This document shows, piece after piece, positions 1,023 to 28,515 of a stretch of DNA of 64,000 nucleotides (the first letter of the stretch is position 1; the number at the start of each line of letters is the position of its first letter). The translations under genes were made by a program, and so were the position numbers. The notes below the pieces were generated by a model. It was not told where the DNA came from, did not search any database, and was given only the letters and a program-made list of their open reading frames with translations. The stretch lies in contig NZ_JALRMO010000001.1 in assembly GCF_023276405.1 (NCBI RefSeq), positions 2,418,001 through 2,482,000 on the forward strand. Direction: 5' to 3'. Origin of the DNA: Paenibacillus hamazuiensis (lineage in GTDB: Bacteria; Bacillota; Bacilli; Paenibacillales; NBRC-103111).

Positions 1023-3296
1023 ATGAGCGAATCTAATCGGGAGTATATCGTAATCTCGGGTGCGAGGGAAAACAATCTCAAGAACGTATCCTTGTGCATT
1101 CCAAAACGGAAGATCGTGATTTTCACCGGAGTATCCGGTTCCGGCAAGTCATCGATCGTTTTCGATACCATCGCCGCGGAATCCCAGCGTCTGCTGAATG
1201 AAAATTTCAGCATGTTCGTCCGCACTTTCCTGCCACGCATTCCGCAGCCGGATACAGATGCGATCGAGAATTTGAGCATGGCTGTTATTGTGGATCAAAA
1301 GCGGCTGGGCGGCGGTTCCCATTCCACGTTGGGCACGATTACCGATATCTCTCCCATTCTCCGTCTTCTCTTCTCCCGAGTGGGCCGGCCTTATGTCGGA
1401 CAAGCCCACATGTTCTCATTTAACGATCCGCAAGGCATGTGTCCCGAGTGCAACGGGATCGGACGCAGGCTGGGCGTTGACATGAGCAAGGCGGTGGACA
1501 TGTCAAAGTCGCTTAATGAAGGGGCCATTATGCTGCCGGACTATTCGGTGAATGGTTGGGAATGGAACATGGTGGTGCAGTCAGGTTCCTTTGATCCCGA
1601 TAAGAAACTTAGTGATTATTCGGAGGAAGAGCTGGAGCAGCTGCTGTACGGCAAGGCAAGGAAAGTGCAGATGGATTTCGCAGGCAAGGCAATGAATATT
1701 ACGGTGGAAGGCGTCATCGAGAAGTTCACCAACAAATACATCAAGCAGGATCTGAAGTCAAAGTCCGAGCGCACACAAAAAGCGGTTGCGCCATACATCT
1801 CCGAAGGTCCCTGCTCCAGCTGCCGCGGCGCGAGACTCAATCAAGCCGCGCTGGGCTGCAGGATCAATGGGCTCAATATTGCGGAGATGTCCTCCATGGA
1901 GGTTGGGCAGCTCATCCGCGTCATTCGGGAGATTGACGACGCGATCGCCGCGCCGGCGGTCAAGTCGCTGACGGAGCGGCTGCAGCATCTGGTGGATATC
2001 GGACTTGACTACTTGACGCTCGACCGCGAGACGGATACATTGTCCGGAGGCGAGTCACAGCGCGTCAAGATGGTAAAGCACCTGAGCGGCAGTCTGGTGG
2101 ATGTCACTTACATCTTCGATGAACCCAGCGTCGGATTGCACCCCCGAGACGTTCACCGGTTAAACGAATTGCTTCAAAAGCTGCGCGACAAAGGCAATAC
2201 CGTGATTGTCGTCGAGCATGATCCCGATGTGATCAAGGTGGCGGATCATATCGTCGACGTCGGACCTCACGCCGGAAGCCGCGGCGGTACCATCGTGTAT
2301 GAAGGAAGCTTCCAAGGCCTGCTGGAATCAGATACACTGACAGGCACCCACATGAAGCGGCCGCTTCAGCTGAAGCACGATTGCAGGAAGCCGTCCGGTA
2401 AGCTGTCCATCGAGAATGCCACACTGCATAACTTGCGGAACGTAAGTGTGGATATTCCAACCGGAGTGCTCACGGTAGTTACGGGTGTCGCCGGTTCGGG
2501 CAAAAGTACGCTGATTAACGAAGTATTCCTCAGCCGGCATCCAGATGCGATCGTCATCGACCAATCGGCGGTAGGCGTGTCGACACGTTCGAATCCCGCG
2601 ACCTATACGGGCATTATGGATGATATACGCAAGGCGTTTGCTTCCGCGAACAAGGTGAATCAAGGGTTGTTCAGCTTCAACTCCAAGGGGGCGTGCGAGA
2701 ACTGTCAGGGACTGGGGGTTGTGTATACGGACCTTGCATTTCTCGAAAGTGTGAAGCTGCCATGCGAAGTATGCGGAGGCAAACGGTTCAAGGAAGAGGT
2801 CCTCGCGTACAAGTTGAACGGCAAGTCCATTGCGGAAGTGCTCGAGATGACTGTGGAGCAGGCGTTGGATTTTTTTCAGCTCAAGGAGGTTGTGCGCAAG
2901 CTCCAGGCGATGAGCGATGTGGGGCTGAACTATATTACACTCGGCCAACCGCTCAGCACGCTCTCGGGCGGGGAATGCCAGCGCATCAAGCTGGCAAGCG
3001 AGCTGCATAAGAACGGCAGCATCTACGTGATGGACGAGCCGACGACCGGCCTGCATATGTCGGATATCGGACATCTTATGGAGATCATGAACCGCCTCGT
3101 GGATGCCGGCAATACGGTGATCGTCATCGAGCACAACCTCGATGTGATCAGCCAAGCGGATTGGATCATCGACATGGGACCGGACGGAGGGAGCAGGGGC
3201 GGTCAAGTGGTGTTCGAGGGCACACCCGCACAGATCATCCACGCGGAGCAGTCGATCACGGGAAAATATTTGATGAATACTTCAAATCCAGTGTAG
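1023..3296 (+). CDS. UvrA-like ABC ATPase lacking the UvrB-binding domain
   Basis: A 757-residue soluble tandem ABC ATPase related to excinuclease subunit A, which is usually about 940 residues. Two Walker A motifs (GVSGSGKSS and GVAGSGKST), two signature motifs (LSGGESQR and LSGGECQR) and zinc-finger cysteines (CPECNGIG; CENCQGLG with CEVCGG) are all present. Between the VGRP stretch and the FSFN segment before the first zinc finger only a few residues remain, where canonical UvrA carries the roughly 120-residue UvrB-binding domain. So this is the short UvrA class, often linked to drug or self-resistance rather than classical UvrABC repair. The ATG at 1023 has GGAAGG nine bases upstream. The open frame extends to 903 but runs through a hairpin. 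Confidence 0.85.
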   Translation: MSESNREYIVISGARENNLKNVSLCIPKRKIVIFTGVSGSGKSSIVFDTIAAESQRLLNENFSMFVRTFLPRIPQPDTDAIENLSMAVIVDQKRLGGGSHSTLGTITDISPILRLLFSRVGRPYVGQAHMFSFNDPQGMCPECNGIGRRLGVDMSKAVDMSKSLNEGAIMLPDYSVNGWEWNMVVQSGSFDPDKKLSDYSEEELEQLLYGKARKVQMDFAGKAMNITVEGVIEKFTNKYIKQDLKSKSERTQKAVAPYISEGPCSSCRGARLNQAALGCRINGLNIAEMSSMEVGQLIRVIREIDDAIAAPAVKSLTERLQHLVDIGLDYLTLDRETDTLSGGESQRVKMVKHLSGSLVDVTYIFDEPSVGLHPRDVHRLNELLQKLRDKGNTVIVVEHDPDVIKVADHIVDVGPHAGSRGGTIVYEGSFQGLLESDTLTGTHMKRPLQLKHDCRKPSGKLSIENATLHNLRNVSVDIPTGVLTVVTGVAGSGKSTLINEVFLSRHPDAIVIDQSAVGVSTRSNPATYTGIMDDIRKAFASANKVNQGLFSFNSKGACENCQGLGVVYTDLAFLESVKLPCEVCGGKRFKEEVLAYKLNGKSIAEVLEMTVEQALDFFQLKEVVRKLQAMSDVGLNYITLGQPLSTLSGGECQRIKLASELHKNGSIYVMDEPTTGLHMSDIGHLMEIMNRLVDAGNTVIVIEHNLDVISQADWIIDMGPDGGSRGGQVVFEGTPAQIIHAEQSITGKYLMNTSNPV

Positions 3297-3319
3297 TCAT
3301 GCACGGATTCGTCATATGC

Positions 3320-3389
3320 GAAAAGGACCCCGGGTTTCCGGGAGTTCCTTTATTCGCCTTAACTTGCTGCTGCAGGTTAAGGCTTTTTT
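3320..3389 (+). terminator. Tandem intrinsic terminators after the UvrA-like gene
   Basis: The first stem pairs GGAC-CCCGG with CCGG-GTTCC (about 3324-3349). The second pairs GCCTTAAC (3356-3363) with GTTAAGGC (3376-3383) and is followed directly by six T. The second is a textbook rho-independent terminator. Confidence 0.8.
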
Positions 3390-3524
3390 GCGTCCATAGA
3401 CGTAGATCACATATTTTCCCACAATCCGGCGATAACGTGTCCATAATCGTTTTATATATTTAATGCCATAGGGACGCTGACCCAGCGAACCTGAACATAT
3501 AACTCGAAGGGAGATTGATGATCC

Positions 3525-4235
3525 ATGAATCCAAAAACAATGAAACGACTCGCTCCGATCGGAGCACTTGCCGCCATGATGCTGCTTTCGACCGGCAGCC
3601 TGGCCGCAGCTGAAACGGAAGGCGCAACTGCATCCAAGGAGACCTCGGCGGTGCAAGCCGTTCCGGCGCAAAAGCCGATCGTTTACGCAAACGTGATGAA
3701 CGATGGGCTGCTCGCTAACCCTGCGCATGCGCGCAATTATTGGAAGCTTCTCGTAGGCGCATACGCGCCCGATCAGTCGGGAGCATGGAATGCCGCTTTG
3801 GAAGAACGTAAGCAGGTGGAAGAAACCTTTCCGAAATTAAAGGCGTCTAAGACTATAAGGATCCAGGGCTCGGGCACTGGCGTCATTGTCGGAGAAGCGA
3901 AGGACAAAGCTGATGAGGTCAACCCGGCTGATGCTGAAGCGTCTGAAAAACAGATAATCAAAATTCCCGATAAAAATGAGGGCGGGGATATTCCGCAAAT
4001 CATCAAGGTTCAAAAGGCAACTGATGTGGACGGTAAATCGGAAATGAAGGAACTGCCTGCACACATTCAGCGACAAATCAAGCTGGGAGAAGCGGTAGAA
4101 GCGGGAGACGCCGATGCCATCCGCGCGCTGCTGCCCGATCTGCTCAACGACTATCGACAGGAGACCCAGAAGCAAAAAGAAATTCAGGAGAAGCTGAAAG
4201 TGGCAGAAGAACAAGCAGACAAAACAAATCCATAA
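3525..4235 (+). CDS. Secreted protein of unknown function ahead of a two-component system
   Basis: A 236-residue protein I do not recognise. Residues 1-29 are a Sec signal peptide: a basic start, a hydrophobic core, then SLAAAE with a likely signal peptidase I site. The mature part is rich in Lys, Glu, Asp and Ala and mostly predicted helical, with no cysteine pair, transmembrane segment or sorting signal. The C-terminal 40 residues (QETQKQKEIQEKLKVAEEQ) have coiled-coil character. GAAGGGAG precedes the ATG. The response-regulator gene begins only 16 bp downstream, so the three genes probably form one operon. The protein might modulate the sensor kinase, which has a large extracellular domain. 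That role is inference. Confidence 0.75.
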   Translation: MNPKTMKRLAPIGALAAMMLLSTGSLAAAETEGATASKETSAVQAVPAQKPIVYANVMNDGLLANPAHARNYWKLLVGAYAPDQSGAWNAALEERKQVEETFPKLKASKTIRIQGSGTGVIVGEAKDKADEVNPADAEASEKQIIKIPDKNEGGDIPQIIKVQKATDVDGKSEMKELPAHIQRQIKLGEAVEAGDADAIRALLPDLLNDYRQETQKQKEIQEKLKVAEEQADKTNP

Positions 4236-4251
4236 CTTGGGAGGAAACCGG

Positions 4252-4950
4252 ATGTACCGCATATTTTTGGTGGAGGATGAAGAGCATTTGAGCGGCCTTT
4301 TGGCCGCTTATATGAGCAAGGAGAGCTGGCAGGTCCGAACGTTCGGCGACGGCGCATCGGCGCGCGCCGCCATTGCCGAACGCCCGGATTTGTGGGTCCT
4401 CGATATCATGCTTCCCGGCGGAATAGACGGTTTCCAGCTTCTTCGCGAGATTAAAGCGGACCGGCCATTCATGCCGGTCATTTTCATTTCCGCCAGAGAC
4501 GCCGATATCGACCGGATCGTTGGGCTGGAGATGGGCAGCGACGATTATGTCTCCAAACCGTTTTTGCCCAGGGAGCTTGTCGTTCGTGTCGGCAAGCTGC
4601 TCGGACGGGTGTACGGAAAAAACATTGATGCGGATTCGAATCTGGCCGTAAACGTTCGACCGCGTTTGATCGTGCCGCCATATATCATAGACGAACAGGC
4701 CAGAACCGTACAAGACGAGCAAGGCCGGACGGTGGACCTCACCTCCAGAGAGTTCGACCTGCTGCTTTATTTTGCCGCAAACGCCGGGCAGCTGCTCATG
4801 CGGGAGCAGGTGCTGAACGCGGTGTGGGGCATCGATTATTTCGGCTCGGACCGCGTCGTGGACGACATGGTGCGCAGAGTCCGGCGCAAGCTGCCGGATA
4901 TCAGGCTGGAAACCGTTTATGGTTACGGGTACAGGATGGTGAAAACATGA
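4252..4950 (+). CDS. OmpR/PhoB-family response regulator
   Basis: A 232-residue two-domain regulator. The receiver domain (about 1-120) has the acidic pair in VEDEEH and a phospho-acceptor Asp51 in VLDIMLPGG. Lys in SKPFLPREL is the conserved receiver lysine. A C-terminal winged-helix DNA-binding domain (about 135-232) carries TSREFDLLLYF and ends GYGYRM. The start at 4252 follows GGGAGG at good spacing. The stop overlaps the kinase ATG (ATGA), so the pair is translationally coupled. The target genes are not apparent, and the secreted protein upstream is the obvious candidate for co-regulation. Confidence 0.92.
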   Translation: MYRIFLVEDEEHLSGLLAAYMSKESWQVRTFGDGASARAAIAERPDLWVLDIMLPGGIDGFQLLREIKADRPFMPVIFISARDADIDRIVGLEMGSDDYVSKPFLPRELVVRVGKLLGRVYGKNIDADSNLAVNVRPRLIVPPYIIDEQARTVQDEQGRTVDLTSREFDLLLYFAANAGQLLMREQVLNAVWGIDYFGSDRVVDDMVRRVRRKLPDIRLETVYGYGYRMVKT

Positions 4951-6578
4951 GAATCGGACAATGGCCGCTTGCCGTCAAACTTTGGGGGTTGTTCGCCGCG
5001 CTGACGCTGCTCGTTTTTATGCTGGTTTCCTTGCTGCTCCCCTGGATGCTGAAGAGCTTTTTTACCGAGCAGCTGTACGATATTTTGGTGGACTCGCAGG
5101 CTAACGTAAAGCTGCTGGGAAAAGCAAGCCCACTTTCGGTCATGGCAGTAGAGAGTAAACCCGTCATCCAACCCGACGTGCCTTCGGAAATCGCCGTCAA
5201 GCCTGCTGCAAAGACCGCATTTCCACTGGAAGCGGGACCGGCGAGTGTTTCCGGCGAGTCCGAAACCAATTCCGCCGATGCGGAAAAGGAACCTGTAACG
5301 CGCATGGTCGTCCAGTTCATGCCCCAAAATGGCGATGCCGAATCGGCGATTATCGAGCAAAAAATTCCCCGGCCGTTGGCTGCCGGCAAGGGAATCCTTG
5401 TCAGCAAGGCGCAACCCGCCGTTCCTGTGGTACAGCATTTTGTCATCAATGGCGACAACGAGCCCGGTTTGCCGGCGAAGGGAATGACCAATGAGCCCCC
5501 CGAAGCGTTTATGGAAGCGATAGAAAAAAATGCGCAGGAGCAGGCCGCACCTCTCGAAAAATATTCGCTGAGCGTGAACGATCAAAATCTGCTTTACGTC
5601 ATCAAAAAAGAAATGCTCGACGGAAAACCGAATTATCTTGTCTCCTACGCCTGGGGCAATTACCGAAACGACCTGGTGATGTCGATGTTCGCGCGGCTGC
5701 TCGTGCTGATGGTCGGGGTAATAGCGGTCAGCCTGCTTCCCTGCATCGCGCTGGCCCGCTATTTGACGCGGCCGCTCGTTCAGATGGAACGCCATGTGGG
5801 GCGGCTTGCGGAACGCGATTGGCACGAGCCGCTCGAAACCCGCCGTAAGGACGAGATCGGCCGTCTCGCCCAGGCGATCGAAACGATGCGGCAAAGGCTG
5901 CTTCGCCAGGATAAAGCGCAGCAGTTCTTTTTGCAAAATATATCCCATGAACTGAAAACTCCCGTTATGGTCATACGCAGTTACGCGCAATCGATCCAGG
6001 ACGGCATTTTTCCTAAAGGAACGCTGCAGGAGAGCCTGAACATCATGATGAAGGAAGCGGCACGCCTTGAAAAGCGCATCCGCGATTTGCTTCTGCTTAA
6101 CAAATGGAACTACCTCTCCTCCCGGGTTAAAAACTTCGAACCGTTTCCGGTGAAGCCGATCGTCGAAGACGTGATCGAACGGCTCCGTTACCGTCGCCCG
6201 GAGATCGAATGGGAGCTGTCGATGGACGATTCGATTCAATTGAGCGGAGACCGCGAGCAGTGGATTGTCGCTTTCGAAAATATGCTCGACAACCAGCTAA
6301 GGTATGCACAATCGCGCATTTGCATCTCCGCTTCGCTGACGTCCGAATCCGGCGCGGAGCATTTTGCTGCAAGTCCCGTTATCCGCATCGCCAACGACGG
6401 ACCCTCCCTCGATGAGGAAACGGCCGAAAGCTTGTTCGAACCGTTCAAAACCGGAAAGGACGGACAATTCGGGCTTGGTCTTGCCATCGTCCGGCAAATT
6501 GCCGAGCATCATCGGATGTCGGTGAGCGCCGTCAATGAAGAGGGGGAAGTGGTATATTATTTGAGGGGCACCCCCTAA
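4947..6578 (+). CDS. Membrane sensor histidine kinase
   Basis: A 543-residue HAMP-type kinase, partner of the preceding regulator. It has transmembrane segment 1 at about 9-34, a large Ala/Pro/Glu-rich extracellular domain (about 35-245), transmembrane segment 2 at about 248-272, HAMP at about 273-325, and an H-box ISHELKTPV with the phospho-accepting histidine near 334. The ATPase domain has an N-box ENMLDNQLRYA and a G-box FGLGLAIVRQIAEHH. The extracellular domain is low in complexity and long for the family, with no recognised sensor fold. The C-terminus is followed at once by GC-rich hairpins that probably end the operon. Confidence 0.9.
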   Translation: MRIGQWPLAVKLWGLFAALTLLVFMLVSLLLPWMLKSFFTEQLYDILVDSQANVKLLGKASPLSVMAVESKPVIQPDVPSEIAVKPAAKTAFPLEAGPASVSGESETNSADAEKEPVTRMVVQFMPQNGDAESAIIEQKIPRPLAAGKGILVSKAQPAVPVVQHFVINGDNEPGLPAKGMTNEPPEAFMEAIEKNAQEQAAPLEKYSLSVNDQNLLYVIKKEMLDGKPNYLVSYAWGNYRNDLVMSMFARLLVLMVGVIAVSLLPCIALARYLTRPLVQMERHVGRLAERDWHEPLETRRKDEIGRLAQAIETMRQRLLRQDKAQQFFLQNISHELKTPVMVIRSYAQSIQDGIFPKGTLQESLNIMMKEAARLEKRIRDLLLLNKWNYLSSRVKNFEPFPVKPIVEDVIERLRYRRPEIEWELSMDDSIQLSGDREQWIVAFENMLDNQLRYAQSRICISASLTSESGAEHFAASPVIRIANDGPSLDEETAESLFEPFKTGKDGQFGLGLAIVRQIAEHHRMSVSAVNEEGEVVYYLRGTP

Positions 6579-7003
6579 ATCCCCCTAAAGGGGGACCCCA
6601 GGCGCTCAGGCGCCCTGGACCCGCCCGCTGGGAGGTCATGCTCGCTGCTAGGGTCGCGTCTGTCGGGCATGGATTTTTTACCTTCGCGTAAAAAAACCTA
6701 TGCCCGACACGCTGCACTTTTTTTGCGAGGATGCGTGGAGCAGGGGGGAGCGCCTCGGACTCGCGAAAACTAAAGACTGTAGGCCAAGCTGCGTTGTGAA
6801 AAGCAAAGGCGAAAATCAAAAACGCATAAGGCAAGAATATCCAAGAGAATGTCCTTTTCATTCGGCGTTCTCTTTTTATTATTTTCAAAAAGGCGATTGC
6901 CTTATTTTTTTGAAGCAGCACATATTGTTGCTTATCTAACCATTTGGGGTACCGCCAGCTGAATGACGTAAAACCCACGATATGACATTATTTACCATGA
7001 AAA
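6579..7003. other. Gene-free stretch with stacked hairpins
   Basis: No supported gene. Directly after the kinase stop lie CCCCCTAAAGGGGG (about 6582-6597) and a CCAGGCGC/GCGCCCTGG stem (about 6597-6619), which together look like a terminator region. A larger hairpin at 6661-6710 is listed separately. The remainder is AT-rich and has no conserved open frame. Confidence 0.5.
6661..6710. repeat. 50-nt imperfect palindrome TGTCGGGCAT...ATGCCCGACA
   Basis: The outer arms TGTCGGGCAT (6661-6670) and ATGCCCGACA (6700-6709) pair perfectly. The inner arms, a T-run and an A-run ending TTTTTTAC and GTAAAAAA, pair around a CTTCGC loop. It could form a cruciform or a bidirectional terminator. It lies between converging genes, so termination is the simplest reading. 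Confidence 0.5.
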
Positions 7004-7043
7004 ATGCCGAAATCCTTACGCTAAGGAATTTTCGGCATCTTTT
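7004..7043. terminator. Intrinsic-terminator-like hairpin
   Basis: ATGCCGAAA-TCCTTA (7004-7018) pairs with TAAGGA-ATTTTCGGCAT (7022-7038) and is followed by CTTTT. It lies in gene-poor DNA to the right of the kinase hairpins. No gene clearly uses it. Confidence 0.55.
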
Positions 7044-7374
7044 GCTTATTCTTGATCCTTTAGGATGGATAAGGACACTGTGGAATATACAAGTAGGGGG
7101 CGAACAGTTTTAGCTACGGGATAAATGTCTCCCACGGATACGCTCGTTCTGTCCTGGTTACCGTTCATCCACCCAGAAAGAAAAGTGGTCAACCAGCAAA
7201 TGCTGGTTGACCTCATGATACGACGGATACGATAGCTGAATACAAAAAGGGCTCCCGCCAACCAAACGCGGATTTCGTACGTTAAGCAATTTGTGATGGC
7301 AATTTAATGATAAAAACGAAAGCTAATACATTTTATGATCGTGGATTTATTCAACTAATGAAGGTCAACGGAAT
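7039..7374. other. Gene-free stretch with a 12-bp inverted repeat
   Basis: No supported gene. It contains GGTCAACCAGCA / TGCTGGTTGACC (7187-7198 and 7201-7212), perfect arms two bases apart. With no adjacent promoter or T-run it may be a protein-binding palindrome or a relic. The minus-strand frame across it (7046-7261) has no ribosome-binding site and no recognisable sequence. Confidence 0.45.
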
Positions 7375-7774
7375 TTAGATTTCAGTCGATTCTAAATCAA
7401 GTAAATGTGACACTAAAGTCTCTGGTTGTGAGAAAAACGGCGAGTGATCTGTATCCATAGATATGACCTTCTTACACGGCGTCGCAGAATACATTTCTCT
7501 TTGAAATCCTGTAGAAATCTGCGGCTTGAGTTATCACAATTCCGCCACTACTGTGTCCAACCATAATTACAGATTCGGATTCATTATCCAATACATTACA
7601 TACGGTGTCAGTATAATCTTTAAGCGTAACGTCAGAAGAAAAGGTGTCATTTGAACCGTGTCCAGGCAAATCAAGCGCGATCACCTTATGCCCGTGTTCC
7701 TTCAATGCAAGTAATACTTCTTCCCAACACCATGCACCGTGCCATGCACCGTGAACCAAGACAAACGTACTCAT
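7375..7774 (-). pseudogene. Alpha/beta hydrolase with a deleted centre
   Basis: The 5' part (start ATG at 7774, AGGAG just upstream) encodes a normal alpha/beta-hydrolase N-terminus: STFVLVHGAWHGAWCWE (oxyanion HG motif), LDLPGHG and the nucleophile elbow VGHSSGG. After about 87 residues the frame is lost and stops near 7472. In another frame, 7375-7475 encodes the family C-terminus DTDHSPFFSQPETLVSHLL, which carries the catalytic histidine. So both ends survive but roughly 100 central residues are gone and the ends are out of frame. Intact relatives are about 230 residues long. The protein should be inactive. Confidence 0.75.
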
Positions 7775-7785
7775 CTTATTTCTCC

Positions 7786-8109
7786 TCACGTACTGTATCA
7801 GAAGGCGCTGAATTGCGTTGCATTACTGCACCAAAACGTCCGAAAATGGGCTATGCACGAAGTACAATTGATCTTCATGCGCTAAGGATTACCGACTTTT
7901 ATTTTGGTAAAAACTGTATTAGCGTGAGTTTTACGTTAATTGGCTGGCGGTACCCCCATTTGCCCGAAAGGATGGATACGTCGCCTCCCGTAATATGTTT
8001 ACATATTATTTGTTATGTCTACATTTTTCTTCTTGTAACAGCCCCGATTTTATGTAGAATAGGGGGAAAGGATTGCTTGGCTGCATAATTTGGCGGAGGT
8101 GCATGATGA
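7786..8109. other. Intergenic region between divergent genes
   Basis: This holds the start region of the decayed hydrolase (minus) and the promoter of the DinB gene (plus). A short palindrome AATATGT-TT-ACATATT lies near 7992-8007 and could be an operator. No coding sequence was recognised. Confidence 0.45.
8033..8060 (+). promoter_or_regulatory. Sigma-A-like promoter for the DinB gene
   Basis: TTGTAA (8033-8038) and TAGAAT (8055-8060) are separated by 16 bp, about 50 bp before the start codon at 8110. It is the only good match in this intergenic stretch. Confidence 0.45.
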
Positions 8110-8562
8110 ATGGACGTAATTCAAAAGATGTTCGACCATATTCATTGGGCTAATTTGCGCATTCTCGAAGGCTTGCGGAGCGTGGAGCCGAAGGAACACG
8201 AGAAGGCGATCAAGCTGTTCGCCCATATTCTTCATTCGGAGCGGGTATGGTTCACCCGACTGCAAGGTAAAGACAGCTCGCATATTCCGATATGGCCGGA
8301 GCTCGATATTTCCGCCTGTTCGGAGCTGGTCAGCCGCAACCATGAAGATTTTAACGCTTATCTCGCAACCGTCACGGATGCCAATGTGAATGATACGATT
8401 ACATACAGAAATCAAACGGGAAGGCAGTATACGACCTCCATCCGCGATATTTTGACGCATCTGGCTCTGCACGGACAATATCACCGGGGACAAATCAATT
8501 CCTTGCTGCGTGCCAAAGGCGAGGAGCCGGTAAACGTCGATTTTATTACTTATGTCAGATAG
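8110..8562 (+). CDS. DinB-family protein
   Basis: A 150-residue four-helix-bundle protein of the DinB/YfiT-like superfamily. The three metal-ligand histidines are visible: one in the helix FAHILHSERVWF, and the C-terminal pair in LALHGQYHRGQ. The WANLRILEGL opening is also typical. Relatives include metal-dependent transferases acting on thiols such as bacillithiol, and DNA-damage-inducible proteins of unknown activity, so the exact reaction is unknown. GGAGGT at 8095-8100 precedes the ATG. It stands alone, 93 bp before the AraC regulator gene. Confidence 0.85.
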   Translation: MDVIQKMFDHIHWANLRILEGLRSVEPKEHEKAIKLFAHILHSERVWFTRLQGKDSSHIPIWPELDISACSELVSRNHEDFNAYLATVTDANVNDTITYRNQTGRQYTTSIRDILTHLALHGQYHRGQINSLLRAKGEEPVNVDFITYVR

Positions 8563-8655
8563 AAGGAAATTTGTCCCATTGTGTCGAAAGTTTTGGCCGA
8601 AGGATGTGAACGATGCATTCCATCCGTTTACTCGACGGCAGAAGGGACACTGCAT

Positions 8656-10932
8656 ATGCTGCAAAGAGAGTTCAACGCAAAGCTTTTATTCACCAACAAA
8701 CAAATCAGGCTCATTTTCCTGCTCACCTTGCTGATTTCCACGTTCATTTCCTCGGCGAGCCTTTTTTTATATTACGATTACCGCAACAAGCTGGACAAAG
8801 AATTAAACCAGCCTAACGCAGAGCTTTTGCGAATCAATTTGGATGTAACGAACCGGGCTTTCCGTAATTACGATCATAAGGCGGTACAGCTTTCTTTCCA
8901 CCCGCTGGTCGCAGACTTCGTTTCATCTTCCGGCGAACGGAAGCCGGAGGTTGCGGCAAGCCTTCTGTCTTACTTGAAAGCAAGCGCTTTCGAAGAGGAT
9001 ATTCACTCGGTCTATGTAGCTGATTTGACAAATCATAAGGTCATTTCTTCGAAAGCGGGGCAGGAGCAAGCGTTCGAGGAGATCAATGATCAAAGCTGGC
9101 TTGCGTGGATAAAGGATATGGAGAAAAAACCGTTGCTGATCAAAAAAAGGTCGACCGGAGACGGATCCGAAGCGTCACCTGCCAGGATAGACCTGATTTC
9201 GTTGTACCGTCCGATCCGCTTCGAAGATAAGCTCGTCGGGCTTGTCGTTTTGAATATCGATTACGACCGGCTGTTTACGAGCATCCATACCCAGTTAAAC
9301 GCACCCCAGTATATCTTCAACCTGGACGGGGAACTGATTTATCCGAAAACCAATTTGCCTGTTACCGAGACGGACATGCACAAGGTGATCGAAGCCATCG
9401 ATATTCAGCCTTTTAAGGAAGTGAAGCTGGGGAAGACGGTGTACCTGGCCAACCAGGCGTTTTCCGATATGACGGGCTGGCGCTGGGTTTCGTTAATATC
9501 TTTGGAGGATTTGCTCAAGAACGCTCGGCTGGTGCGCAACATCATCGTTATGCTTTCGCTTCTCTCGATTGTGATCGGGTGCGTAGCCATTTATTATTAC
9601 AGCTTCACGGCCTCCCGTCCGGTCAAAAGAATACGCGAGCTGATCGGGCAGGATGGGAAGTCGCATGCGCCGGGAGATTTACATGATATTGAGCAGTACA
9701 TTCATAAGCTGATCAGGGAGTTTGACTTGAACTCCGCGATCAGCAGGGAGAGTCTGCCGGAAATTCGCGCCAAGTATGTCCAGGATGTGTTGTTTCACCG
9801 CATAGGGGCCAAAGAAATTCAATTCAAATGGCAAAGATATTTCCAGGAATGGACCGAAGCGCCGCTGACCGCGGCCATCGTTTCAATTAACCGTTACAAG
9901 GCTTGGTCGGCTGAATTCAGCGAAGAAGACCAGCTTCTTCTGAAATATGCGCTGAACAATCTCATTCATGAAATTTTCGAGCCCGATTGGAACTCCATCG
10001 GCATCACTCTTGACAAAGAGAACCTGCTTTTGATCGTGCAGCCGAAACGAAGCCAGCCGGATTCTATACAGTCCGCACAGGCCCAGTTCGATAAAGTCAT
10101 TGAAATGTCCCGAAAATATTTGCACATGCAGCTTTCCGCGGGCCTTGGAACGCCGGTCCCGTCGATTTCCGGGCTGCACCGCTCTTATTCCGAAGCCGCA
10201 GCCGCTTTGGCTTACCGCTTATATGCGGGCTTCGGGAAAACCATCTGCGCCCATCCCGTTATGCAGCATAAAGATTTTACCGAGGCGCAAGCGGAAAAGG
10301 TAAAACGCGAATGGCTCGGCTGCGCGGAGTCGGGCGAATCTCAGGAACTTGCCGAAAGCATCAAACGATGGTCCGAAGCGGTTTTGGAAATGCGCCATTC
10401 CCCGGATTCGGTTTATTCCTTTGCCGACGGGTGGATAGAATTGCTGGCGGAGCTTAGCCAAACACACGATCTCTTAAAGCCGGCCGCTCTGGAGGATTAT
10501 ACGTCCCATCAGCTGAAAATGATGGATCTTGAGGATCTCACCGCACTCCTTCTTGATGTATCGGTTCACACAGCGACCGCGCTCAAAAACCGGCTGAACC
10601 GCAAGGAACACTCGATTGTGCAGCGAATGATTCAATACATGAGAGAACGTCTGAGTGAAAATATCGGATTGCAGCACATCGCCGATTCGATCCAGATGAG
10701 CACCTCGTCCGTCAGCAGCATATTTAAACAGGAAACCGGTTTTTCGGTGTACGAGTATTTGACCAACCTGCGCATTGAGGAAGCTTGCCGCCTGCTGATC
10801 GAAACGGAACGTAAAATAGCGGACATCGCGATGCACGTCGGCTACCAGAACGAAACGAGCTTTATCCGAAGCTTCCGTAAGGTGAAGGGAATGACGCCCG
10901 GCAAATTCCGGGAGATCAGCAAACCGTATTAA
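8656..10932 (+). CDS. Membrane-anchored AraC-family regulator with extracellular sensor
   Basis: A 758-residue protein with transmembrane segment 1 at about 18-38, an extracellular Cache-like region to about 290, transmembrane segment 2 at about 292-315, a linker, and a C-terminal AraC/XylS double helix-turn-helix (about 655-758). The last domain has IADSIQMSTSSVSSIFKQ in the first helix-turn-helix and ends IADIAMHVGYQNETSFIRSFRKVKG. This one-protein sensor and regulator layout is common in Paenibacillus. I placed the start at the ATG at 8656. The longer frame to 8581 has no good ribosome-binding site. It sits just upstream of the TctCBA-SDR genes and probably controls them. Confidence 0.85.
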   Translation: MLQREFNAKLLFTNKQIRLIFLLTLLISTFISSASLFLYYDYRNKLDKELNQPNAELLRINLDVTNRAFRNYDHKAVQLSFHPLVADFVSSSGERKPEVAASLLSYLKASAFEEDIHSVYVADLTNHKVISSKAGQEQAFEEINDQSWLAWIKDMEKKPLLIKKRSTGDGSEASPARIDLISLYRPIRFEDKLVGLVVLNIDYDRLFTSIHTQLNAPQYIFNLDGELIYPKTNLPVTETDMHKVIEAIDIQPFKEVKLGKTVYLANQAFSDMTGWRWVSLISLEDLLKNARLVRNIIVMLSLLSIVIGCVAIYYYSFTASRPVKRIRELIGQDGKSHAPGDLHDIEQYIHKLIREFDLNSAISRESLPEIRAKYVQDVLFHRIGAKEIQFKWQRYFQEWTEAPLTAAIVSINRYKAWSAEFSEEDQLLLKYALNNLIHEIFEPDWNSIGITLDKENLLLIVQPKRSQPDSIQSAQAQFDKVIEMSRKYLHMQLSAGLGTPVPSISGLHRSYSEAAAALAYRLYAGFGKTICAHPVMQHKDFTEAQAEKVKREWLGCAESGESQELAESIKRWSEAVLEMRHSPDSVYSFADGWIELLAELSQTHDLLKPAALEDYTSHQLKMMDLEDLTALLLDVSVHTATALKNRLNRKEHSIVQRMIQYMRERLSENIGLQHIADSIQMSTSSVSSIFKQETGFSVYEYLTNLRIEEACRLLIETERKIADIAMHVGYQNETSFIRSFRKVKGMTPGKFREISKPY

Positions 10933-24708: not shown

Positions 24709-24954
24709 TAGGGTTGAAAGACAGCATAACTGTTTACAACTTTATATTTTAAGTGACTTTATGGGGAGGCTCATACACACTCAGCACCAACTTTTCAGTC
24801 ATGCTCTGAGAAATAAAGTTGTCGTAATCTGGCGAATTAAATAAATTATCCATTAATTATTTCAGGTCTTAGTGCCTATCGATTTTCACGAAAGAAAAGA
24901 GTAGATTTTAGATGTAGTGCTAAAATGTAGAAATCGACAATTAAATAAACCGTA
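24709..24954 (+). other. Gene-free stretch before the riboswitch
   Basis: No supported gene. AT-rich. The promoter for the riboswitch transcript should lie here. TAAAAT near 24921 could be its -10 box, but no good -35 is evident. Confidence 0.35.
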
Positions 24955-25045
24955 CGACAATGGCAAACCAGTTGAAAAACGGGGACGCAAAGCTACAGGG
25001 GCTAAGGTGGAACAAATATTCCATGATGCCAGCCAGTTGCCGAAT
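24955..25045 (+). ncRNA. Cyclic di-GMP-I riboswitch (GEMM-I) aptamer
   Basis: The conserved GEMM-I core is present in order: GGCAAACC, a CCAGTT-GAAA-AACGG hairpin with a GNRA-type loop, GGGACGCAAAGC, a second stem built on GGGGCTAAGGTGGAA / TTCCAT, then ATGCCAGCCAG and the closing TTGCC that pairs with the first GGCAA (P1). Spacing and the invariant GACGCAAAGC match the family. It binds cyclic di-GMP and is located about 130 bp upstream of the E1-alpha start at 25173, same strand. Confidence 0.88.
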
Positions 25046-25080
25046 ACGACGGAAACCTCCGTCTTATTCATATTTATTCC
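25043..25080 (+). terminator. Riboswitch expression-platform hairpin
   Basis: GAATA-C-GACGGA and TCCGTC-T-TATTC pair around AACC directly after the aptamer P1, followed by a T-rich ATATTTATT. It could be a switchable terminator. The T-run is weak, so the ON or OFF sense of the switch cannot be stated with certainty. Confidence 0.6.
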
Positions 25081-25172
25081 GATAAGATAGGAGGTTATTT
25101 GGCATTCCCAAAAAGCGTTTCCTTCGGTAGACCGAAGCATTGGGGTTTATTAATGGGGAGGAGGACTCAGTC

Positions 25173-26180
25173 ATGATGAGAAATGATGTAAGCCTGGAGA
25201 TTGCGAGTCGACATCGTTCACTGGGTTTATCAGATCAGCAGGTTCTTTACATGTACCGTGATATGATGTTAGCGCGAAAAGTCGACGAGCAGATGTGGCT
25301 TCTTCATCGGGCGGGAAAAATCCAATTTCCAGTATCGTGCCAGGGCCATGAAGCGGCACAGGTTGGAGCTGCGTATGCGCTGGATAGCAGGAAAGATTAT
25401 TTGTGTCCTTATTATCGGGATATGGGGATGGCCATTGTTTTCGGAATGACAGCCAGGGAATTATTGTTGGAAGCGTTCGCAAGGGCCGGTGATCCGAATA
25501 GTGGCGGCAGGCAAATGCCCGGAAGTTACGGCAGCAGAAAATATCATAAGCTTACAACCTCCAATGTCGTCGCCCCGTACGCTGCTCGTATGGCATTAAC
25601 AGGGCGTTTGCAGGGTGAAAATTTCGTTGCATTAACCGCTTTAGGAGAGGGGGCTTGCAATCAAGGTGAATTTCACGAGGTAGTCAACTTTGCAGGTATG
25701 CACAAGCTGCCGGTCATTTTCTTCTGCGAGAATAACAAAAATGCCATTTCACATCCTTATTCGAAGCAAGTGACAAGTGAAAGTATCGCCGATAGGGTGA
25801 CAGGGTATGGATTTCCCGTATTCCGTGTGAACGGAAATGATCCCCTGGAAGTATACAAGGTTACGAAAAATGCGGTCGACAGAGCCAGATGCGGCGAAGG
25901 ACCAACGCTAATCGAGGCAGTCCATCACCGTTTGGCTCCTCATACAAGCGAAGACGACGATCGGACTTATCATTCTTGTGAAGAAGTGGAAGAGATCAAG
26001 AAGCAAGATTCACTTATCATCTTTAAGTATTATCTGAAGGAAATCGGATTACTGGATGAACGAACTGAGAACAAAATGCTTGACCAAATCGTGAAAGAAG
26101 TCGATGAGGCCTTGGATTATGCCGAACATGCCCCAAATCCTATCCCAGAAAGCACCCTGGACCATGTTTATGCAGAATAG
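25173..26180 (+). CDS. bkdAA: Branched-chain 2-oxoacid dehydrogenase E1 component, alpha subunit
   Basis: A 335-residue thiamine-diphosphate-dependent E1-alpha, close in length and motifs to BfmBAA/BkdAA: YRDMMLARKVDEQMWLLHRAG, CQGHEAAQVGAA, SGGRQMPG and the TPP/Mg motif GEGACNQGEFHE...NN (CENNKNAIS). It should decarboxylate branched 2-oxo acids as an alpha2beta2 tetramer inside the BKD complex, but no E1-beta, E2 or E3 gene follows, so it is unpaired here. Conserved Tyr in the usual NKYAIS is Asn. GGGAGGAGG precedes the ATGATG pair. It is the first gene after the cyclic-di-GMP riboswitch. Confidence 0.87.
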   Translation: MMRNDVSLEIASRHRSLGLSDQQVLYMYRDMMLARKVDEQMWLLHRAGKIQFPVSCQGHEAAQVGAAYALDSRKDYLCPYYRDMGMAIVFGMTARELLLEAFARAGDPNSGGRQMPGSYGSRKYHKLTTSNVVAPYAARMALTGRLQGENFVALTALGEGACNQGEFHEVVNFAGMHKLPVIFFCENNKNAISHPYSKQVTSESIADRVTGYGFPVFRVNGNDPLEVYKVTKNAVDRARCGEGPTLIEAVHHRLAPHTSEDDDRTYHSCEEVEEIKKQDSLIIFKYYLKEIGLLDERTENKMLDQIVKEVDEALDYAEHAPNPIPESTLDHVYAE

Positions 26181-26279
26181 GAGGACGGAATATGTCCGTC
26201 ATTGAAGGAAGGAGTTGAACGAATTGTCTAAATTTTGTTCTGCTGACAATGTAGAATTCCTGTGGAGAGGGGTGAATTT

Positions 26280-27497
26280 ATGTCTATCATTCAATCGAAA
26301 TCGGTACCTGCTGTAGCGCCGACCGCTTTCCCGATTCTGATCGCCATCAGTATCGTGCATTTATTGAATGACACGATGCAGTCGACCGTTTCGGCGCTTT
26401 TTCCGATTTTGAAAGAGTCGCTGCATTTGACGTATAAGCAGATCGGGCTGATCGCCTTTTGCATGAGTATGACCGCTTCGCTGCTACAACCGATGGTCGG
26501 GAAATTGGCGGATGCTCATCCCCGGCCCAGTATATTGCCTATAGGGGTCATTTTCACATTGTCCGGTATCGTTGCACTGTCCATGGCATCGAGCCTCGGC
26601 GCCATTTTGCTCGCTGTTATCGCCATCGGGATCGGATCTGCCGTATTTCACCCGGAGTCTTCCCGTGTTGCTCACATGGCCGCCGGGAACAGACGCGGAC
26701 TCGCGCAATCGATATTTCAAGTAGGAGGAACGATCGGCAACTCACTTGGCCCGATTATGACGGCGGTATTATTCGTCCCTTTGGGGCAGTTTGGTGTCAT
26801 CTGGTTTACAATTGCGGCATCGGCCGGCATTGTGATCCAGGTTTACGTAGCAGGCTGGTACCGTGCCAACATGACGAAGCACGCCAGTACGAAGAGCGGG
26901 GCACCCCGTGCAAACCGCACCGCAACATTGTCACGGAACCGGATCGCTTGGGCGATTGCGCTCCTTGTGCTCTTACTTTTTTCTAAGTATGTATATATTT
27001 CCAGCATAACTAGCTACTATTCGTTTTATTTGATTCATAACTTCGGTTTGTCGATTGCGCATGCGCAATTGCTTTTATTCATGTTTTTGTTCGCGTCTGC
27101 GATCGGAATGCTGCTTGGAGGACCGATTGCAGATCGATATGGCCGCCGGAACGTCATATTCCTTTCCATTTTTGGAGCTGCGCCGTTCTGTCTTCTGATG
27201 CCGTATGCAAACTTGTTCGGTTCCGGTGTGCTCGTCATCTGCGCCGGGTTCGTTCTTTCATCGGCTTTTTCAATCATTGTCGTCTATGCGCAAGAGATGC
27301 TTCCGGGTAATGTCGGTCTCATCTCCGGACTGTTTTTTGGTTTGGCGTTCGGTCTCGGCGGTCTTGGCTCAGGCGTGCTCGGCTGGGTCGCCGATGCGAG
27401 AGGTATTGAATTCGTTATGCAGCTGTGCGCCTTCCTTCCATTGCTGGGTGTGTTTGCCTTACTGCTTCCAAAGGATCGCAATGCGGCGGAGGCTTGA
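26280..27497 (+). CDS. MFS efflux transporter, fosmidomycin-resistance (Fsr) type
   Basis: A 405-residue major facilitator with 12 predicted transmembrane segments. Motifs match the Fsr group: HLLNDTMQSTVSALFPILK near the N-terminus, GSAVFHPESSRVAHMAAG (the FHPE signature), FQVGGTIGNSLGP, and in the second half GGPIADRYGRRNVI. It lies 99 bp after the E1-alpha gene, with no strong terminator between them, and 44 bp before the next gene, so it is probably in the riboswitch-controlled unit. GGAGAGGGG precedes the ATG. The substrate is unknown; relatives export antibiotics or small metabolites. Confidence 0.85.
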   Translation: MSIIQSKSVPAVAPTAFPILIAISIVHLLNDTMQSTVSALFPILKESLHLTYKQIGLIAFCMSMTASLLQPMVGKLADAHPRPSILPIGVIFTLSGIVALSMASSLGAILLAVIAIGIGSAVFHPESSRVAHMAAGNRRGLAQSIFQVGGTIGNSLGPIMTAVLFVPLGQFGVIWFTIAASAGIVIQVYVAGWYRANMTKHASTKSGAPRANRTATLSRNRIAWAIALLVLLLFSKYVYISSITSYYSFYLIHNFGLSIAHAQLLLFMFLFASAIGMLLGGPIADRYGRRNVIFLSIFGAAPFCLLMPYANLFGSGVLVICAGFVLSSAFSIIVVYAQEMLPGNVGLISGLFFGLAFGLGGLGSGVLGWVADARGIEFVMQLCAFLPLLGVFALLLPKDRNAAEA

Positions 27498-27541
27498 CTT
27501 CTCCGTCAACCAATTTGTATTTCAAGAAAGGGGATTGGGCC

Positions 27542-27964
27542 ATGATTAGACTATTTGTTTATGGCACGTTGTTAAAAGGGGAAGCTAACCATCATATTGT
27601 CGCTCCTTATCTAATAGCTGTTGAGCCGGGCGTTGTCCGAGGGACGCTGTACAATGTCGGACCGTACCCTGCGCTAATGCTGTCCGAGAGCCACGCTGAT
27701 GGCGTTATCGTGGGTGAATGGATGACTGTAAGCGAAGCCGGGCTGCCGGCGTTGGATCAGTTGGAGAACTTTTATGCACCGGGGGACCCGCGAAACGAAT
27801 ACGAGCGCATGCGCATCGTTGATATCGACGGAAATCGTGAAGGCTGGGTATATGTATATGTAAGGCACGATCCGAGTTGCTTCCCGGAAATCGCGACCGG
27901 CTCGTGGCGAAGCGTGGAGCGGCAGCGAGGCGTATTTAAATGTGAAACGATTAGTGTACAGTAA
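27542..27964 (+). CDS. Gamma-glutamylcyclotransferase-like (AIG2/GGCT) protein
   Basis: A 140-residue single-domain protein of the GGCT fold. It has the substrate-cradling motif VYGTLLKGEANH at the N-terminus and a conserved acidic residue in LDQLENFYAPGDP, the catalytic glutamate region of GGCT. It may release 5-oxoproline from gamma-glutamyl amines, but many family members have no proven reaction. GAAAGGGG precedes the ATG. It is the last gene before a strong terminator. Confidence 0.85.
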   Translation: MIRLFVYGTLLKGEANHHIVAPYLIAVEPGVVRGTLYNVGPYPALMLSESHADGVIVGEWMTVSEAGLPALDQLENFYAPGDPRNEYERMRIVDIDGNREGWVYVYVRHDPSCFPEIATGSWRSVERQRGVFKCETISVQ

Positions 27965-28026
27965 ACATAATACTCCTAACTTTATGCCATGTGATAACTC
28001 AGTCATAATGCTACTGATTTGATATC

Positions 28027-28075
28027 AAGTTCGTATTTCAGGGTTTCGTTGGGAACCTGAAAATACGAACTTTTT
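28027..28075 (+). terminator. Strong terminator closing the riboswitch operon
   Basis: AAGTTCGTATTTCAGG (28027-28042) and CCTGAAAATACGAACTT pair with one bulge around a 13-nt loop, and end in TTTTT. It bounds the E1-alpha/MFS/GGCT unit. Confidence 0.88.
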
Positions 28076-28515
28076 GCGTTTTATAACACGCAATTGCAAA
28101 CTCTACCGAGGAGTCATACAAACAGAGCTTATTAATACTATTTCACAAAACCCGTATTTTGTACAGATGTATGAAAATCAATCATGGTTGTCACGCGGCA
28201 CAAAGTTCGGAGTTTTATGTTACTGCACACAAATCATTCTTTCTTCTACTCTACCGCCTCAAGTAAGGCACTTGTTTCGCGGACGATATCTTTCGCGCGG
28301 TAACACTCCTACAGATAAAACAAAAAGCCGCTAAAATAGCGACTTCTAATGTATCATGTTCAAGTTCCGAGTTAAACGATGCAAGAATAGCTCCCGTTGC
28401 TTACTTAATAAGTATCTTTCTTTCATTCATTATTCATCAAGAAATCAACTCCAATAAATTTCCATTATATTATGACGCTTACCAAGTGCCTTTATCTGAG
28501 CAGGACGTTGCGGTA
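28076..28515. other. Gene-free stretch
   Basis: No supported gene. A weak hairpin AAGCCGCT/AGCGACTT lies near 28325-28345. The short plus-strand frames have no ribosome-binding site. The plus-strand frame at 28486-28755 is antisense to the AraC remnant and is discounted. Confidence 0.45.

Follow-up and report, generated by a model that had tools for sequence, protein, structure and literature searches.

A c-di-GMP-I riboswitch ahead of an orphan E1-alpha gene in Paenibacillus hamazuiensis

Class I riboswitches for cyclic di-GMP (c-di-GMP-I or GEMM-I; Rfam family RF01051) form a well-known class, and a published survey assigns unknown functions to most of the GEMM regulon (114 genes) and polysaccharide degradation to 21 genes (PMC3766115). 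One described member, Bc1 of Bacillus thuringiensis, has a long expression platform with dual transcription-translation control; Bc1 is reported to bind c-di-GMP, yet the genes downstream did not respond in vivo (PMC11218506). Here, we analyse a c-di-GMP-I aptamer in a 64-kb stretch of the Paenibacillus hamazuiensis genome (contig NZ_JALRMO010000001.1, positions 2,418,001 to 2,482,000; hereafter the window). It is followed on the same strand by a gene for an E1 alpha subunit of the branched-chain 2-oxoacid dehydrogenase type (E1-alpha), a major facilitator superfamily (MFS) transporter gene and a gamma-glutamylcyclotransferase/AIG2-like (GGACT) gene. An earlier note on this DNA had proposed that these parts define a second-messenger-controlled metabolic or export function. 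We consider it moderately probable, instead, that a genuine riboswitch has been joined to the remnant of an operon, the first gene of which is a stranded and partly eroded E1-alpha.

The window aptamer shares with its class a full-length match to the model, a G at the position taken as G20 and a location upstream of a gene on the same strand; its expression platform, in contrast, is not a canonical terminator. Many of the genome's other copies have chemotaxis, c-di-GMP turnover, PilZ, surface or similar genes behind them, whereas the window target is an orphan metabolic subunit. The likeness to Bc1 lies in the long leader after the aptamer, which extends over 128 nucleotides (nt) up to E1-alpha and contains alternative hairpins; Bc1 has two typical terminators 28 bp apart, whereas the window has one weak terminator-like hairpin (PMC11218506). 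The encoded protein resembles BkdAA-type E1-alpha (that of P. tyrfis, P. ehimensis, P. elgii and P. montaniterrae, and Thermus 1um9_A) in matching E1_dh over nearly its whole length, and it is 65-69% identical to its nearest relatives, which belong to other Paenibacillus and to a Peribacillus plasmid. It differs from them in having no adjoining E1-beta or E2 gene, in the loss of nine invariant residues and in its GEMM-I leader, a feature that none of the scanned relatives shares. No literature linking a branched-chain E1 alpha subunit, c-di-GMP and a riboswitch was found in open-licence PMC.

The aptamer and the E1-alpha gene behind it

RF01051 matched the plus strand of the window at 24952-25044 with 75.9 bits, well above its gathering score of 35 (E = 4e-13; model positions 1-87 of 87; Rfam cmscan). 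This bears out the intact GEMM-I aptamer of the earlier note, which had named the covariance score as a check. When P1 was extended by hand, giving an aptamer of 24951-25048, a closing helix was possible in which CGUACG and CG-AA-UACG form six standard pairs with a two-base AA bulge. Apart from RF01051, no Rfam family reached its gathering score in the whole window. In the Rfam alignment, base 24962 is a G and not an A. A G rather than an A at position 20 underlies the selection of c-di-GMP over cyclic GMP-AMP (cGAMP), and we tentatively take 24962 to be G20. PMC6274999 makes use of the crystal structure of a GEMM-I riboswitch that carries the G20A change and is bound to cGAMP. The window aptamer is convincingly a genuine class-I c-di-GMP riboswitch, binding of c-di-GMP itself being predicted. 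As a riboswitch it is ordinary, a further member of its class; its target is odd.

That target, at 25173-26180 on the plus strand, encodes 335 residues that match PF00676 (E1_dh) with 269.3 bits. No E1-beta gene lies between it and the MFS gene, and neither E1-beta nor E2 adjoins it. A related E1-alpha gene was detected by blastn (E <= 1e-20) in 13 of 103 other genomes of the family, the same-genus sister genome not being among them. Among 66 fetched loci from outside the own genome with an E1-alpha match (identity above 44% over more than 150 residues; these are not 66 independent genes), 65 carry E1-beta, and in 64 it lies within 100 nt. The gap is 372 nt at one locus, L072, because its E1-alpha frame is broken, and another, L071, a metagenome assembly fragment, has only 68 residues of E1-beta. 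According to the lists of open reading frames (ORFs), the relatives' E1-alpha genes precede frames that read as E1-beta and E2; at P. tyrfis-type loci these are followed by further genes, one of which, judged by its N-terminus, resembles an acyl-CoA dehydrogenase and another a biotin carboxylase.

A probable deletion scar, corresponding to the start of E1-beta, was found at 26192-26218 on the plus strand. There, ATG TCC GTC ATT ... reads MSVIEGRS and then stops; relatives begin MAVISY or similar. The sequence ATGTCCGTCATT, 11 nt after the window E1-alpha stop, agrees at 11 of 12 letters with the E1-beta start ATGGCCGTCATT that L052, L053, L058 and L073 have in common 12 nt after their E1-alpha stops. 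Across the junction, the window has TAG GAGGACGGAAT ATG TCC GTC ATT, with GAGGA between stop and start, and L058 has TAG GAGGAGTGGGAA ATG GCC GTC ATT; similarity to E1-beta ends after the fourth codon. L065 and L068 were unusable in this comparison, their E1-alpha frames running on into E1-beta. Sites matching ATGGCCGTCATT at 11 of 12 letters are so few in the window (two on the plus strand, including the scar, and none on the minus strand; 13 on both strands at 10 or more letters) that a match at the expected distance is unlikely to be due to chance, allowing for the use of the best-matching relatives. The genome itself (8.8 Mb, two contigs) holds one canonical bkd-type E1-alpha/E1-beta/E2 set and two more distant sets. 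Its canonical bkd E1-beta (G000:C1:1862794-1863771) is 65% identical to the E1-beta partner of the relatives, and no second E1-beta or E2 of matching type was found in this genome. The window E1-alpha gene probably once belonged to a dehydrogenase operon and was left stranded.

Of 75 alignment columns that show no variation among 53 relatives, the protein has lost the common residue in 9: R40Q, H118S, S131N, deletion of Q134, G139R, Y190N, G216V, S258T and R267H. The corresponding count for each relative is 0-2 of 66-68. Many of the relatives are close kin, which lowers their counts, but even L039 and L069, which have the two next-longest branches, show no more than 0 and 2 losses, respectively. 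In a phmmer alignment, N131 of the window protein faces Ser144 of the Thermus enzyme, a residue that touches thiamine diphosphate (ThDP), and a three-residue deletion lies close to this position. By alignment mapping, window residue 190 aligns with the inner and residue 267 with the outer active-site loop of the G. stearothermophilus enzyme, loops given as 203-212 and 275-293 of the alpha subunit in PMC2663715. A further candidate lesion, GEG in place of GDG in the Mg2+ motif, was rejected: many relatives have GEG as well, among them the BkdAA encoded by this genome (L047).

The window E1-alpha also has the longest end branch of the tree (0.5, against a median of 0.091). It falls within a well-supported set of 17 rows, the named ones being Paenibacillus. 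Support for pairing it with P. montaniterrae is lower (85/75), and a warning from the tool applies, namely that long rows are placed unsurely. Selection was assessed in two quartets with a codon branch model written for this analysis, using one-ratio, two-ratio and omega-fixed-at-1 models; a free-ratio model was dropped because it returned a meaningless omega of 13 on a very short inner branch in one quartet. Omega on the window branch was 0.15 and 0.17, compared with 0.078 and 0.070 elsewhere, and no rise was observed with L065 as foreground (0.062 versus 0.100). From these sequence comparisons, the window E1-alpha appears eroded but not dead, and it is unlikely to function as an ordinary E1. 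It would be either a slowly decaying relic or a protein kept for some other role.

Two of the fetched loci show arrangements of their own. At L065 of Paenibacillus montaniterrae, the closest in the tree, an E1-alpha/E1-beta pair stands beside two P450-like genes and a methyltransferase-like gene (2551-10027), and an extra gene sits between E1-beta and E2; with gene labels read from translations only, this neighbourhood is perhaps a biosynthetic cluster. At L071 (155-1225), from an Anaerolineales metagenome assembly, the E1-alpha frame continues into a short E1-beta stretch, and an E2-like frame comes next, which reflects either a deletion or a misassembly.

The leader and its predicted switching

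The hairpin that the earlier note had seen after the aptamer is present on the plus strand at 25042-25069 (hairpin A; GAAUA.GACGGA with UCCGUC.UAUUC; -13.8 kcal/mol), as a terminator-like stem with a weak U tail. It is mutually exclusive with hairpin B (25054-25096; -15.2 kcal/mol), in which CCUCC (25056-25060) pairs with GGAGG (25090-25094). A possible 25-codon leader ORF starting with TTG, recognized from its translation, occupies 25099-25176, and its stop codon shares bases with the start codon of E1-alpha in the sequence ATGA. This ORF might couple its translation to that of E1-alpha, with no conservation in support; its own Shine-Dalgarno (25089-25094), a good one, is mostly paired in the predicted folds. 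The Shine-Dalgarno of E1-alpha, GGAGGAGG, lies at 25157-25164 and is predicted to be less accessible when the aptamer is formed.

No run of at least four T with a hairpin was found downstream of the window aptamer, and a looser scan counted the inner hairpin of A (25048-25063) as terminator-like. A T-run terminator occurs within about 100 nt in 7 of the 13 other above-threshold copies of the genome, or in 8 counting a weak one. The same six-base arms as in this inner stem (GACGGA / UCCGUC) recur in a small hairpin at 26184-26200, which overlaps the E1-beta scar. In a DNA search of the leader against its own genome, matches were limited to the aptamer part, and no related leader was found.

Folded alone, the leader reached -38.3, against -29.8 +- 3.6 for shuffles, 4 of 300 of which were as stable. 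We then compared Shine-Dalgarno accessibility with the aptamer and P1 enforced or not, for two 5' ends and ten 3' ends. Mean accessibility at the E1-alpha site fell with aptamer and P1 formed in 19 of the 20 combinations, by at most 0.02 in two of these, and rose slightly in one. The mean drop was 0.37 for 5' end 24948 with five 3' ends, and 4 of 100 shuffled leaders showed a drop at least as large. Under a cruder constraint that left out P1 the drop was 0.64, with none of 100 shuffles as large; we relied on the test that includes P1. These predictions weakly favour an OFF switch acting on E1-alpha translation. We discarded a switch in which sequences further downstream specifically open the aptamer core, because 284 of 300 shuffled leaders favoured the free over the bound state equally or more.

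The earlier note had also raised the possibility of a separate promoter between the aptamer and 25173. A consensus scan listed none there on the plus strand, though with little power (7 sites versus 6.5 expected from shuffles), and one of its sites (24934-24961) overlaps the aptamer start; another (26263-26290) lies at the start of the MFS gene.

The downstream genes and competing explanations

The MFS gene (26280-27497; PF07690, MFS_1, 133.2 bits; relatives up to 72% identity) begins 99 nt after E1-alpha, and the GGACT gene (27542-27964; PF06094, 86 bits) 44 nt after the MFS gene, both on the strand of the aptamer. Together with the PF00676 match, these hits agree with the gene content announced in the earlier note, namely a same-strand E1-alpha without E1-beta, a pump and a GGCT-like gene. 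The label Fsr for the pump was that note's own: the pump matched only MFS_1, with no Fsr model among its NCBIfam hits. The strong terminator that the note had placed at the end of the unit corresponds to an intrinsic-terminator-like hairpin at 28028-28071 (plus strand) that runs into the T-rich TTTTTGCGTTTT, the fold of 28010-28085 having -25.0 kcal/mol.

Relatives of the MFS and GGACT genes occur in 100 and 69 of the 103 family genomes, respectively. For all three genes the inspected loci were the best-scoring ones rather than every genome with a match. With about 1.5 kb inspected on each side, none of the 29 MFS loci and none of the 29 GGACT loci carried another gene of the unit. GEMM-I was likewise found at 0 of 49 loci with relatives of the three genes, where no Rfam family reached its gathering threshold; these 49 are a subset of the fetched loci, comprising 9 + 20 with E1-alpha relatives and 20 with MFS (11) or GGACT (9) relatives. 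When the sister genome was compared with the window via a radical-SAM gene (45% identical), no convincing shared flanks were observed, the other matches being 30-34% identical to AraC-type and response-regulator proteins.

We infer that E1-alpha once formed part of a complete E1-alpha/E1-beta/E2 operon, such as other Paenibacillus retain, that a cut just inside E1-beta removed the rest of the operon, and that E1-alpha acquired the riboswitch leader and the MFS-GGACT genes as neighbours in this lineage. Binding of c-di-GMP may then hold P1, upon which the leader would hide the E1-alpha Shine-Dalgarno, so that high c-di-GMP might lower E1-alpha translation; any effect on the pump and the GGACT gene would arise solely from polarity or from the level of the transcript. 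Several observations weigh against this account. The protein retains the His (window 257) aligned with H271 alpha of the G. stearothermophilus enzyme, as well as the NN motif. The reading frame is intact and omega = 1 was rejected on the window branch (2 delta lnL 13.1 and 8.9), and therefore decay cannot have gone unchecked along the entire branch; the rise of omega above the background was borderline in one quartet (2 delta lnL 3.4) and moderate in the other (5.4). The 12-letter E1-beta start used for the scar comes from the best-matching relatives, others matching the window at fewer letters. The OFF-switch prediction varies with the setting of the bound state (0 versus 4 of 100 shuffles), and its shuffle comparison covers one 5' end, 24948; with 5' end 24935 the average drops were smaller for the same 3' ends, and at 3' end 25300 the drop was absent or reversed. 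In addition, the searches found no ortholog of the leader on which its pairing could be tested.

We also considered the possibility that the locus is a functional module under second-messenger control, in which a repurposed E1-alpha (a pseudoenzyme, or a partner of the genome's other E1-beta) acts together with the pump and the GGACT protein. This would fit the common strand, the gaps of 99 and 44 nt, the single terminator-like hairpin at the end, the intact E1-alpha frame under purifying selection and the weak coupling predicted between the E1-alpha Shine-Dalgarno and the aptamer. Yet the arrangement is absent from the inspected loci (66 for E1-alpha, in addition to those for the other two genes), the E1-alpha looks like an operon remnant and its lost residues include positions aligned with active-site loops, which makes such a module quite unlikely. 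Of the earlier note's interpretation, the analysis supports the riboswitch, the strand on which it lies and its position upstream of E1-alpha and, weakly, control of E1-alpha translation; it does not support a purposeful module, a designed metabolic or export function being possible but not favoured. Unlikely too, though a more serious competitor, is a dormant riboswitch that binds c-di-GMP but has a platform that no longer regulates, its original target having disappeared when a rearrangement brought the riboswitch in front of E1-alpha. The lack of a canonical terminator, as compared with the other copies, and of any related leader in the own genome is in keeping with this, and Bc1 offers a published precedent (PMC11218506), a caution against taking regulation for granted. 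The leader is nevertheless more stable than nearly all of its shuffles, and accessibility of the Shine-Dalgarno tracks the state of the aptamer more than in 96 of 100 shuffles.

If E1-alpha were an active enzyme working with the E1-beta of the canonical bkd operon, c-di-GMP would tune the supply of branched-chain acyl-CoA. The genome does hold an E1-beta, that 65% identical to the relatives' partner, and the catalytic His and NN are retained, but the loss of nine invariant positions and the deletion near the Ser144-aligned position make this hardly credible. A related idea, which we regard as very improbable, is that a pseudoenzyme E1-alpha, dosed by the riboswitch, joins tetramers with the canonical E1-beta and poisons or retunes the supply of branched-chain acyl-CoA, and with it of membrane fatty acids, on leaving the sessile state. 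Were E1-alpha such a regulated pseudoenzyme, c-di-GMP would be directly linked to branched-chain acyl-CoA metabolism; if it is not, the locus is a warning against inferring the function of a stranded gene from its riboswitch context. Under the explanation that we favour, a riboswitch joined to an operon remnant, the target is most likely unusual because E1-alpha is a leftover. The locus is a further c-di-GMP riboswitch whose target is atypical, and it points to a way in which targets of this kind may originate, by the joining of a regulatory leader to the remains of a metabolic operon.

Other c-di-GMP-I copies

The genome contains 16 c-di-GMP-I matches, 14 of them over the cut-off, and the window copy ranks fourth by score. 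The first plausible genes after the 13 other above-threshold aptamers encode a dCache/HAMP protein, CheX, an EAL protein, an apparently secreted transglutaminase-like protein, a small ORF followed by a protein kinase, a PilZ protein, an HD_5 protein, a PA14/fn3 protein, a 92-residue protein followed by DUF2935, GTP cyclohydrolase II, a copper-amine-oxidase-N/MORN protein and a Spo0E-like protein; after aptamer L005, no convincing same-strand gene was found within the fetched 1.5 kb. The c-di-GMP proteins EAL, HD_5 and PilZ are thus encoded behind three of these aptamers, and many of the targets are ordinary for GEMM-I (chemotaxis, c-di-GMP turnover, PilZ, surface and similar). The window target is not the sole metabolic one, because the GTP cyclohydrolase II gene also lies behind GEMM-I. 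At that locus (L012; G000:C1:2854218-2854313), the riboswitch and a strong U-run hairpin are followed by the GTP cyclohydrolase II-domain gene (L012:526-1278, minus strand), a second metabolic target that may be tied to GTP supply.

The aptamer ahead of the Spo0E-like gene (Pfam) lies at G000:C1:2922450-2922507 (L014). In the sister genome, a c-di-GMP-I aptamer (L091; G001:C26:786-871) also precedes an ORF, the N-terminus of which is similar to that of the Spo0E-like gene, and a link between c-di-GMP and the control of sporulation is possible. Finally, on the Priestia megaterium plasmid NZ_CP065336.1, 55 bases (L097:5001-5055) are 85.7% identical to part of the window aptamer, and this aptamer-like stretch lies about 50 nt upstream of a SinI-family anti-repressor gene.

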